64,000 nt of DNA. Origin: Eubacterium sp. (lineage in GTDB: Bacteria; Bacillota; Clostridia; Lachnospirales; Lachnospiraceae). The stretch covers positions 31,999 through 95,998 of the forward strand of contig JAFRGW010000034.1 of NCBI GenBank assembly GCA_017433615.1, in the 5' to 3' direction. The translations under genes and the position numbers were made by a program. Under the pieces are notes generated by a model. It did not search any database and was not told the origin of the DNA. It saw only the letters and a program-made list of their open reading frames with translations. Below are positions 10,885 through 14,023 of this stretch, one piece after another (within the stretch, counting starts at the first letter, position 1; each line of letters begins with the position of its first letter).

Positions 10885-12282
10885 ATGATTTCTGTACCGA
10901 AATTATTCAGAAATACAAAATCGGTGAAGCGGATTCAGACATACATGGATACCGTTTTGAATGAGGTTCTTCACACGACGCTCAATCCGGACGGACCGGG
11001 TGCGATCCGCATTCATCTGATTCCGCCGAAGAATGAGGAGAACACCCTCAATCCGAGTGTCGCAATTATCAACGGAACAGATGTCGTGCCCGTCAATTTT
11101 GCCTGGGCGGTGATCCTGGCGGAGATGATCCGCGAGACAAACCGGTACGACGGGAAAGAGATCGGAGAGACGGATATTCAAAACATTCTGGACCGGACCT
11201 GTGAGAACGTGAAGCAGATCATTCCGTTCTTCTCACGAAAACGGATTCAGGAAGATATTCAGACAATTTATCAGACGATGCGGCAGATTGCGTACCGCGA
11301 AGAAGTTACAACAGATGTCCACTATATGAGCCTTGGCGAATATGCGGAATACATGAATGCGCCGCACCGGATGGATCTGCTGGTCAGTGCCATGACAAAG
11401 AACGGAAACTGGCACTGCAATCAGAAATGCGTGCACTGCTATGCGGCTGGGCAGACACTGGCTGACGAGGAGGAACTCTCGACAGCATCCTGGAAGGAAA
11501 TCCTCGCAAAATGCCGTGCTGCCGGGATCCCGCAGGTGACCTTTACCGGCGGCGAGCCGACCATGCGGGACGACCTGATCGAATTGATCAAGGACGCACG
11601 CTGGTTTATTTCCCGGCTGAATACCAACGGAATCCGGCTCACGAAGGAATACTGCAGCGCGCTGCATGATGCAGAACTCGACAGTGTCCAGATCACGTTC
11701 TACTCCTGTGATCCGGATATCCACAACCGGCTGGTCGGCGCGGAGCAGTTTCAGAATACGGCAGCGGCCATTGAAAATGCGCTGGCAGAGGGGCTGTCGG
11801 TCAGCATCAATACACCGCTCTGCACATGGAACCGGGATTACCGGAAGACACTCGAATATCTGCATGAGCGGGGCGTGATCTATGTGACCTGCTCCGGCAT
11901 GATTACGACCGGTAATGCAGCCGGCGAGGCGTCGGAACATCTGCAGCTGACCGGTGAAGAGCTTGAGGCGATTCTGCGGGATGCTGTCGCATACTGTCAC
12001 GCGAACGGCATGGAAATCGCATTTACCTCGCCGGAATGGATCGGACAGGAAGTATTTGACGAATTAAATATCCCGTCGCCTTCCTGCGGTGCGTGCCTGT
12101 CCAATATGGCAGTTACGCCGGCCGGGAATGTCGTGCCCTGCCAGAGCTGGCTGTCAGACAAGCCGCTGGGCAATCTGCTCTGCGATGACTGGACAGCGAT
12201 CTGGGAAAGTGAAGCCTGCGCGGCCAGAAGGGAATATTCATCTGAAATGACCGGGAAATGTCCGCTGAGGAGGTATTGCTGA
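10885..12282 (+). CDS. Radical SAM/SPASM peptide-modifying-type enzyme
   Basis: A 465-aa radical SAM enzyme. The core has the [4Fe-4S]/SAM motif C178-x3-C182-x2-C185 followed by a TGGEPT segment. The C-terminus has SPASM cysteines for auxiliary clusters (C401, C404, C419, C445, C459 and the terminal C465). An N-terminal region of about 150 aa that I do not recognise precedes the core. SPASM enzymes mostly modify peptides or proteins by forming thioether or C-C crosslinks. The start at 10885 is set by AGGAGG five bases upstream. Its stop overlaps the start of the next gene by one base (TGATG), and that gene encodes a protein with a ten-cysteine repeat tail, the obvious candidate substrate. The modification itself is inference. 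Confidence 0.92.
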   Translation: MISVPKLFRNTKSVKRIQTYMDTVLNEVLHTTLNPDGPGAIRIHLIPPKNEENTLNPSVAIINGTDVVPVNFAWAVILAEMIRETNRYDGKEIGETDIQNILDRTCENVKQIIPFFSRKRIQEDIQTIYQTMRQIAYREEVTTDVHYMSLGEYAEYMNAPHRMDLLVSAMTKNGNWHCNQKCVHCYAAGQTLADEEELSTASWKEILAKCRAAGIPQVTFTGGEPTMRDDLIELIKDARWFISRLNTNGIRLTKEYCSALHDAELDSVQITFYSCDPDIHNRLVGAEQFQNTAAAIENALAEGLSVSINTPLCTWNRDYRKTLEYLHERGVIYVTCSGMITTGNAAGEASEHLQLTGEELEAILRDAVAYCHANGMEIAFTSPEWIGQEVFDELNIPSPSCGACLSNMAVTPAGNVVPCQSWLSDKPLGNLLCDDWTAIWESEACAARREYSSEMTGKCPLRRYC

Positions 12283-13670
12283 TGAACCACATGATCAGGG
12301 ATCAGAAAAACAGGAATCGCCGGCACAGGAAGATGCCGGCCGGAAACGTTCTGAAGAGACGTGCACGGATCAGGAAACTGACTGCATGCCTGTCTGTTGT
12401 GTGTCTTATGCTGGTCTGGGTTTGTTTTGCGGCTGTCCCGGCCAGGGCTGATGCAACCGATGAAATCCGTGATTTTACCATCACCGTTGATGTAAATGAC
12501 GACGCCTCGCTCAACATGAATTACCACATTGAATGGGAGGTGCTGGACGACTCGATCGGTGAGCTGGAATGGATCGACCTCGGCGTGCCGAACAGCTTTC
12601 ACGAAGACATTGAGCCCATCAGTGATACGATTGATTACATCGAAGACAATGGCAGCTCGCTGGCGATTTACCTGGACCGTGGTTACGGGGAAGATGAGAT
12701 TGTCAGCGTTGATTTCTCTATGAAACAGGACCATATGTATCAGATCGATAAGTGGGTGGAAGGGGAATCTGTCTATACCTTCACGCCCGCATGGTTTGAC
12801 GGCATGGATGTTGATCAGCTTACCATCCGCTGGAATGCGGAGAATGCAGGTGCGTGGCAGCCGGACTGCCTGCAGGATGACGGGTATCTGGTCTTTGAGA
12901 CATCGCTGTCAGCCGGCGAGAAGTATACCATTTCTGTCGTCTACCCGAATGATACGTTTGGTTTTGTCCCGGAGCGGCAGGCCGGCGGCAGCGGCGGAGA
13001 CTACGAAGATAGCTATGACGGCAGTTATGAGAGTGAAAGCGGCGGGTACAGCATTGCGGAAGGCATCGGGATCCTCATTGGAATTGTGATTTTTCTTGGT
13101 TTCATTGCTGCGCCGTTCATTGCACTGTACAAATTTATCCGCTGGATTGCCGGCGGCACCGGATTCGGCACCGGCACGTCCGCACAGCCGCAGACCAAAA
13201 AGAAGATCACGCGCACGAAGATCGAATATTATGAAAGCTGCCCGGGCTGCGGCGCCGTGCGGGAGGATGGCAAGGATAAATGTGCCTACTGCGGACGCAG
13301 TATGATTAAAAGCAAAGAGGTTGTAGAAGAGGACCAGATCGAAGAACCTGAGAAATATACGAAGCGGGGAACGTACCGGTACGGAAATGCACCGAATACG
13401 TTTATCCGTGTCAACGTGATCAATGTACCGGTCAGCCGGCCGCGGTCATCCTCGCATTCGTCTCATTCTTCCCGTTCGGGAGGTTCCCATCACTCGTCCT
13501 GTGCGTCTTCCTGTGCGTGTGCATCGTCCTGTGCCTGTGCGTCCTCCTGTGCATGCGCCTGTGCATGTGCATCCTCGGGAAGGGCGGGCTGTTCCGTGAA
13601 AGATTTCTTCAGGGACAGCATCCACAACGGACGGATCCGCGTACAGCAGTATCAGAGGAGGGATCTGTAA
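12282..13670 (+). CDS. DUF2207-like membrane protein with Cys-Ala-Ser repeat tail, probable radical SAM substrate
   Basis: A 462-aa membrane protein. A basic N-terminus and hydrophobic helix (about 34-54) act as signal or anchor. An acidic extracytoplasmic domain of about 200 aa resembles the N-terminal part of DUF2207 proteins. A Gly/Ser/Tyr linker and a second helix (about 262-285) follow. A zinc-ribbon-like CxxC-x10-CxxC comes next (C320, C323, C334, C337), then Ser/His-rich sequence. Residues 407-430 then repeat CASS and CACASS, followed by GRAGC (434-438 region) and KDFF. Cys lies at 407, 411, 413, 417, 419, 423, 425, 427, 429 and 437. The start at 12282 has GAGGAGG nine bases upstream and is coupled to the radical SAM gene. 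With two helices, the tail could face the cytoplasm, where the enzyme is. Confidence 0.85.
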   Translation: MNHMIRDQKNRNRRHRKMPAGNVLKRRARIRKLTACLSVVCLMLVWVCFAAVPARADATDEIRDFTITVDVNDDASLNMNYHIEWEVLDDSIGELEWIDLGVPNSFHEDIEPISDTIDYIEDNGSSLAIYLDRGYGEDEIVSVDFSMKQDHMYQIDKWVEGESVYTFTPAWFDGMDVDQLTIRWNAENAGAWQPDCLQDDGYLVFETSLSAGEKYTISVVYPNDTFGFVPERQAGGSGGDYEDSYDGSYESESGGYSIAEGIGILIGIVIFLGFIAAPFIALYKFIRWIAGGTGFGTGTSAQPQTKKKITRTKIEYYESCPGCGAVREDGKDKCAYCGRSMIKSKEVVEEDQIEEPEKYTKRGTYRYGNAPNTFIRVNVINVPVSRPRSSSHSSHSSRSGGSHHSSCASSCACASSCACASSCACACACASSGRAGCSVKDFFRDSIHNGRIRVQQYQRRDL

Positions 13671-13672
13671 GA

Positions 13673-14023
13673 ATGTGTCAGGAAGAGACAGCGCACGGAA
13701 GCGGCGCATTTGCAAAAATATATGAAGTTGTCCGGCAGATCCCGCGGGGAACTGTCGCGACATACGGGCAGATTGCCGCGCTTGCGGGAAACCGCCGCTG
13801 GGCCCGTGTGGTCGGCTACGCACTGCATGCCAATCCGGATCCGGACGGAATTCCATGCTACCGGGTCGTCAACCGGAACGGAGAAGTCTCCCCGGCATTT
13901 GCTTTTGGCGGAAAGAACCGCCAGATTGAATTGCTCGAAGCGGACGGAATTCCCTGTCCGGACGGCAGGGTGGATCTTGCCAAATACCGGTGGAGCCGGG
14001 TGACGACAGATTTTTTGCTGTGA
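13673..14023 (+). CDS. MGMT-family (alkyltransferase-like) protein
   Basis: A small 116-aa protein matching the DNA-binding domain of O6-methylguanine-DNA methyltransferases: VVRQIPRGTVATYGQIA, then GYALHANP, IPCYRVVNRNG and a final W/R segment. The active-site consensus is PCHRV; here it is PCYRV, so the reactive Cys is kept but the helper His is Tyr. Stand-alone alkyltransferase-like proteins usually have Trp for Cys, which is not the case. The start is set by GAGGAGGG about ten bases upstream and lies two bases after the previous stop, so it belongs to the radical SAM operon. It may repair alkylated bases or serve as a DNA-damage sensor; why it sits in this operon is unclear. Confidence 0.85.
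   Translation: MCQEETAHGSGAFAKIYEVVRQIPRGTVATYGQIAALAGNRRWARVVGYALHANPDPDGIPCYRVVNRNGEVSPAFAFGGKNRQIELLEADGIPCPDGRVDLAKYRWSRVTTDFLL

Follow-up and report, generated by a model that had tools for sequence, protein, structure and literature searches.

Several radical S-adenosylmethionine (SAM) enzymes that mature ribosomally synthesized and post-translationally modified peptides (RiPPs), such as SkfB, AlbA, CteB and PapB, combine a SPASM/twitch region with an N-terminal RiPP recognition element (RRE) and adjoin the gene of a Cys-rich substrate. We describe here a gene pair of the same general plan, its own RRE being probable, at positions 10885 to 13670 of the window, i.e. the whole 64,000-nucleotide stretch of contig JAFRGW010000034.1 (Eubacterium sp., assembly GCA_017433615.1, positions 31,999 to 95,998) that was analysed. 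The first gene encodes a radical SAM/SPASM enzyme and the second a membrane protein, the carrier, which ends in a Cys-Ala tail. Unlike the sactipeptide and ranthipeptide maturases, the enzyme has as its putative substrate the tail of a membrane protein (carriers are 300-500 amino acids long), and the recognition element probably lies C-terminal to the core; also unlike those systems, clustering of neighbouring open reading frames (ORFs) gave no third conserved gene in more than 11 of 118 loci among the matches listed. A larger translated protein does serve as substrate of QhpD, which introduces thioether links into QhpC within quinohemoprotein amine dehydrogenase (PMC8172795, part of the text consulted). 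A radical SAM enzyme acting on a larger protein instead of the usual precursor peptide would be common to both cases, but QhpC is an enzyme subunit, whereas here it is the low-complexity repeat tail of a membrane protein. A substrate with a short repeated unit, encoded next to one enzyme, is likewise described for TVGG/TvgB and for the Asp-Cys repeats of Cluster 59, although those substrates are precursor peptides (PMC9062424, part of the text consulted). As far as the same part of that source goes, its network of SPASM-type enzymes was built with lengths of 340-450 amino acids and a search for precursor peptides, limits that would tend to miss the present system; the window enzyme, with 465 residues, lies outside them, though some relatives of 448-450 residues lie inside. 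In the portion of the open literature consulted (most subscription journals and bioRxiv lie outside it) we recognised no description of Cys-Ala tails with a radical SAM enzyme, and the literature containing a tail-motif string was unrelated by title.

We consider it likely, with a probability of about 0.6, that enzyme and carrier constitute a two-gene RiPP-type maturation system in which the tail would be stapled, most likely by thioethers. The conserved pairing, the grammar of the Cys array and the predicted fold class of the enzyme were established by computation. That the tail is the partner of the coupled enzyme is strongly supported by sequence comparison; that it is the substrate is probable, judging from the pairing, the conservation of the tail and the predicted fold. 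The link between tail and enzyme proposed in the initial annotation is well supported, as tails without enzyme are rare, carrier bodies diverge while their tails stay, and the enzyme model resembles RiPP maturases.

The gene pair and its features

The features of the pair are as follows.

10885..12282, plus strand: radical SAM/SPASM enzyme, 465 amino acids (ORF, ribosome-binding site, Pfam, structure model)
10969..11292, plus strand: candidate RRE-like winged-helix N-terminal domain, enzyme residues 29-136 (model secondary structure, fold alignments)
11416..11439, plus strand: radical SAM cluster motif C178-x3-C182-x2-C185 (conservation in relatives)
12085..12261, plus strand: reduced SPASM/twitch region with C401, C404, C419, C445 and C459 (conservation in relatives)
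12282..13670, plus strand: membrane carrier protein with Cys-Ala tail, 462 amino acids (ORF, aligned homologues)
12369..12449, plus strand: carrier N-terminal hydrophobic segment, probable signal peptide, ending in A-R-A (sequence reading)
12441..12989, plus strand: carrier beta-sandwich ectodomain, probably extracytoplasmic
13065..13130, plus strand: single internal transmembrane segment of the carrier, about residues 262-283 (sequence reading)
13239..13292, plus strand: zinc-ribbon-like CPGC-x10-CAYC in the carrier (sequence reading)
13500..13571, plus strand: Cys-Ala-Ser array, carrier residues 407-430, nine Cys (sequence reading, relatives)
13578..13610, plus strand: end motif GRAGCSVKDFF with the tenth Cys (fixed spacing from the array in relatives)

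By ORF reading the enzyme starts with the ATG at 10885, with AGGAGG just 5' of it, and stops with the TGA at 12280-12282, whose A is also the first base of the carrier ATG at 12282 (TGATG, one-base overlap). The coordinates, residue numbers and gene coupling first given for this region agree with this reading. The window tail reads CASSCACASSCACASSCACACACASS-GRAGCSVKDFF, followed by 19 more residues; residues 407-430 consist of Cys, Ala and Ser only, and the ten Cys reported for the tail are the nine of this array together with C437 in GRAGC.

Co-occurrence of enzyme and tail

We scanned one genome per species with a degenerate DNA pattern for GRAGC[ST]xKDF[YF] in which no Cys-Ala repeat was demanded, and obtained at least 118 loci; GRAGC and KDF are fixed by this design, so that their invariance is no evidence, while array content, spacing and the 8-residue distance from array to motif were left free. 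A Cys-rich array lay 5' of the end motif in all 118 of the 118 loci among the matches listed. The enzyme family, searched with a profile of 16 enzymes, was found within the fetched stretch at 98 of the 118 loci among the matches listed. The remaining 20 were mostly cut at an edge, and for 18 of them the enzyme was present in the whole genome (this search also took in L057); the loci of enzyme and tail have DNA in common in 16 of the 18 genomes. The initial annotation had asked whether such tails are widespread without a radical SAM neighbour; they are rare, with only two among the 118 matches listed, L063 (G200) and L113 (G213), coming from genomes without the enzyme. L063 has no in-frame upstream start region or signal segment and no enzyme in its 1.7-Mb genome, and is possibly a decaying orphan; the L113 carrier is truncated where its stretch ends.

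Of 200 genomes from the family to which the window belongs, 16 had the enzyme, and a tail profile blind to the carrier body matched exactly these 16; the associated figure of 5.9e-24 is only indicative, as the genomes are related. The ectodomain was found in 17, namely the same 16 and G082, which lacks both the tail and this enzyme. Behind the tail-less body of G082 (L035, 1366-3120) lies a gene that contains a C-x6-C-x2-C stretch and looks different from the enzyme family; we take it to be DUF5131-like. Across 398 genomes of the phylum the enzyme occurred in 15 and the tail, by profile, in ten, all of them inside those 15; of the other five, G232, G313 and G347 carry a tail with a different end beside the enzyme, G449 is cut within the array, and in G564 the carrier is masked in part and ends before the tail.

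The 114 enzyme loci (16 + 98) yielded 94 usable enzymes, nine having no usable start and the others being shorter than 330 residues, and 89 of the 94 had a measurable carrier on the same strand. Enzyme and carrier overlap in 64 of these 89 pairs, and the enzyme comes first in 86 and the carrier in 3. Clusters of neighbouring ORFs at the 118 loci among the matches listed recurred as carrier (96) and enzyme (88), then 11 and 10; the 11-locus group, in the row taken as its example, runs antisense to the carrier, and the 10-locus group is ABC-transporter-like. Some loci hold two or three carriers per enzyme (L043, L045, L106), and L055 and L057 lie on one contig; the bodies in such multi-carrier loci are 52-59% alike, and their tails agree at 17/20 positions once and at 20/20 three times. 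In L106 (1629-5851), from a genome titled Butyrivibrio, one enzyme is accompanied by three consecutive ORFs with Cys-Ala tails.

More distant enzymes show the same association. In families f59 and f121, enzymes scoring 317-347 bits adjoin carriers ending C[HYA]CVSCACACVSCACACACAGG[RG]GAGC-xxKF, and in f18 and f23, enzymes at 207-218 bits come after carriers of about 475 amino acids that end SCACACACACA[SG][SG]GGCT and are remote relatives of the main ectodomain (hhalign probability 95.8). The enzyme occurs in 11 of 13 f59 genomes, the two without it also lacking an ectodomain match, and in three of five f18 genomes, the other two having no carrier match. Tails could be read at nine of the 11 f59 enzyme loci, one of them cut inside the array; of the other two, one was both masked and cut and the second was located at the end of a contig. 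Pfam, applied to L218 (f121) and L219 (f59), showed TPM and LemA genes after the carrier in both loci, and this enzyme-carrier-TPM-LemA row ties the tails to a LemA/TPM gene neighbourhood; L217 looks similar. In all three f18 genomes with the enzyme (L213-L215), two proteins with N-terminal hydrophobic segments lie 3' of it, and those of L214 had no Pfam match. A tree of 99 enzymes, built by a quick method, contained 70 rows from Bacillota, 4 from Actinomycetota, 2 from Mycoplasmatota and 23 without phylum assignment. Named strains with the system include Gemmiger formicilis ATCC 27749 and Hungatella hathewayi WAL-18680.

It could be argued that the pairing merely reflects coincidental inheritance in an operon, as the mostly Bacillota rows of the tree might indicate vertical inheritance. 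We regard this as highly improbable, since the distribution is patchy (15 of 199 genera of the family) and covers three phyla, both gene orders occur (86 enzyme-first and 3 carrier-first, with carrier-first also in f18 and f23), and three diverged enzyme clades keep the association.

A mobile origin was also considered and rejected: no plasmid matched the system at 1e-30, and the sole 'phage' match was a mislabelled bacterial contig. This 7.4-kb INPHARED record, 'Bacteriophage sp.' MT837216.1 (L238), resembles a Gemmiger bacterial contig and has a tail as in L054; its gene row presumably comprises a release-factor-like protein, a membrane protein, the enzyme, the tail carrier and an AAA-like protein. 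In the window, what we take to be a methylguanine-DNA-methyltransferase-like gene (13670-14023) begins immediately behind the stop codon of the carrier; none of the neighbour groups listed as recurring at tail loci corresponds to it. A promoter scan of the region returned one promoter-like site, on the opposite strand, versus 3.5 in shuffles.

Conservation of the tail and topology of the carrier

The same-genus relative G081 has 40/40 tail residues identical to the window despite 22 synonymous codon differences, which rules out chance or a DNA microsatellite as the origin of the array; the whole carrier is 78% identical between the two over residues 15-458. When 121 carriers were compared with that of the window, median identity was 43% for the body and 84% for a segment of 20 residues surrounding the end motif. 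The number of Cys varies between tails, but the grammar of the array is nearly constant. In 58 distinct arrays, including those cut at locus ends, 429 Cys were followed by Ala in 399 cases, Val in 26, Phe in 2 and Gly in 2, and were spaced by 2 (263), 4 (65), 5 (37) or 3 (6) residues. In 137 of 138 tails the last Cys of the array stands exactly 8 residues before that of the motif.

We retained 126 carriers for analysis of their architecture, excluding those cut at a locus edge or shorter than 230 amino acids. An N-terminal hydrophobic segment was found in 117/126 and an internal one in 120/126. In the window carrier the N-terminal segment is followed by the ectodomain, the internal transmembrane segment, the zinc-ribbon-like motif and a linker rich in His, Ser and Gly, after which comes the tail. 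The 462-residue window carrier, with its signal segment, ectodomain and transmembrane segment, is not a small precursor peptide with a leader and a released core. After the six carriers without a detected internal transmembrane segment had been set aside, 102 of 120 had the higher net charge on the side of the tail, 3 showed no difference and 15 had a lower net charge there; with K and R alone counted, these numbers were 84, 17 and 19. This charge bias favours a topology with the ectodomain outside and the tail in the cytosol, where the radical SAM enzyme could act, and from sequence the tail is probably cytosolic. The protein had initially been described as a two-helix envelope protein with a zinc ribbon; its internal transmembrane helix stands, the first helix looks like a signal peptide, and the tail is probably on the cytosolic side. 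The zinc ribbon, found in only 76/126 carriers, cannot be upheld as part of the system. In L037 and L040 (G039, G189) we noticed extra proteins with a carrier-like zinc ribbon and hydrophobic stretches and no Cys-Ala tail.

The relation to DUF2207 (PF09972) mentioned in the initial annotation proved weak: 8 of 37 carriers matched at E<=0.1 (best 0.0051), the L082 carrier scored 16.6 bits against a gathering score of 24.4, and the window carrier had no match at E<=0.1. These weak matches and the TPM and LemA genes of two loci are what the system shares with DUF2207/TPM/LemA proteins, from which carriers differ by scoring below the Pfam gathering score where it is shown. The portion of the literature account of DUF2207 consulted names no radical SAM partner.

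These observations bear on two other explanations. The tail could be merely a docking or regulatory element, the enzyme modifying the carrier elsewhere or a lipid; within the family, co-occurrence does not separate body from tail (the ectodomain occupies the same 16 genomes plus one), and a lipid enzyme ranks second by sequence among solved relatives. However, the tail is far better conserved than the body and the ectodomain probably lies across the membrane from the enzyme, which makes this explanation very unlikely. Alternatively, the tail could stay unmodified and bind a metal or Fe-S cluster, the enzyme serving the metal centre or another molecule. A flexible tail with as many as ten thiols, the zinc ribbon of 76/126 carriers and hosts that are probably anaerobes, to judge from genome titles, would suit such a scaffold. 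But Ala after Cys in 399/429 cases appears stricter than a thiolate sponge needs, metallothionein spacers being variable, and this strictness makes a bare metal scaffold less likely. Moreover, the enzyme resembles peptide maturases, and the one tail-less body in the family, that of G082, comes without the enzyme. We therefore hold the scaffold to be rather unlikely.

Enzyme fold, candidate chemistry and meaning

The window enzyme matched Pfam Radical_SAM (PF04055, 9.2e-21) and SPASM (PF13186, 2.1e-6, 28.4 bits against a cut-off of 21.5), and has the CxxxCxxC motif and (beta/alpha)6 core of radical SAM/SPASM enzymes. C178, C182 and C185, correctly recognised from the start, are invariant in 94/94 relatives. 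Beyond residue 400 there are seven Cys (C401, C404, C419, C433, C445, C459 and C465), not the six first counted; among the 94 relatives C401 and C419 are kept in 94, C459 in 91, C445 in 86 and C404 in 85, while C433 (1%) and C465 (18%) are poorly kept, so that five are conserved. A full SPASM domain has seven Cys and two auxiliary clusters. The distant clades have a CxxC-x5-CxxxC end, judged by eye. Assignment to a known named radical SAM family was rejected: among the matches listed (the best 25 of 64 families at E<=0.1) no NCBIfam equivalog scored above its cut-off. The top family, NirJ2, reached 99.6 bits against a cut-off of 500, and it was also top for 41 further members (1e-35, best E-values only).

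The structure model (mean predicted local distance difference test, pLDDT, 91.7) has SkfB and SuiB as its closest solved folds, and SkfB is the best solved match in sequence and fold alike. Its N-terminus contains strands 29-33, 41-46, 58-62 and 66-70, then helices 72-86, 95-112 and 118-136. Alignments with SuiB and SkfB begin at model residues 29-31 and 41 and span 341-355 residues, versus 242-284 residues for the other rows among the best 30 fold matches; that with CteB, which has a known RRE, begins only at residue 155-158 and leaves the CteB RRE unaligned. Pfam, PDB-profile and profile-profile comparisons found no RRE by sequence, and it is the model that suggests that the N-terminal domain is probably RRE-like, with a winged helix.

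We propose that the enzyme, via this putative RRE-like domain, would bind the C-terminal end of the carrier at the cytosolic face of the membrane, the binding element most likely being GRAGC[ST]xKDF[YF] and the stretch beyond it; GRAGCSVKDFF is thus the probable recognition element of the window carrier. The enzyme would then act repeatedly along the Cys-Ala array, most likely forming intramolecular thioethers in which Cys sulfur is joined to Ala (or Gly/Ser) at the alpha or beta carbon, and the product would be a compact stapled tail staying on a membrane protein whose beta-sandwich domain is probably extracytoplasmic. In some short arrays, such as GGGGCACACACACAGGGRAGC of L015, Cys, Ala and Gly are the only residues that precede the Arg, hence the acceptors there would be Ala or Gly, if thioethers form. 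According to the consulted part of PMC8172795, Ala is a reported thioether acceptor in Trn-beta and RumC1, while AlbA and PapB refuse it at their own sites.

The main chemical rival is epimerisation, because PoyD acts on every second residue, proceeding from the C-terminal side (PMC8326336, part of the text consulted). Every other residue of the array, Ala or Cys, would be inverted by the enzyme to its D form, and the resulting strand would alternate between L and D, with its thiols left free. The array likewise has a period of two residues, and C313 (94/94) and C336 (90/94), conserved outside the cluster motifs, could donate hydrogen atoms. We nevertheless consider epimerisation improbable.

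Returning to stapling, its most specific form is a tentative reading at somewhat less than even odds: a transmembrane protein would have its Cys-Ala tail, on the cytosolic side, stapled into a multiply thioether-linked rod (Cys to Ala, sactionine- or lanthionine-like). On the same footing, slightly short of even, RiPP chemistry would here alter the structure of a membrane sensor permanently, in a system that three or more diverged enzyme/carrier clades have kept and that extends over Bacillota, Coriobacteriia and rumen Mycoplasmatota. The carrier is perhaps a sensor of envelope or redox stress, as a weak analogy to a DUF2207 protein would suggest.

The Cys-Ala repeat would then be a very simple substrate, from which bond type, directionality and acceptor choice would be directly readable. 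Genome mining aimed at small precursor peptides would tend to overlook such a system. If the proposal is true, radical SAM peptide maturation reaches beyond secreted natural products and also shapes a fixed covalent tail on a membrane protein, in the setting of gut and rumen bacteria.
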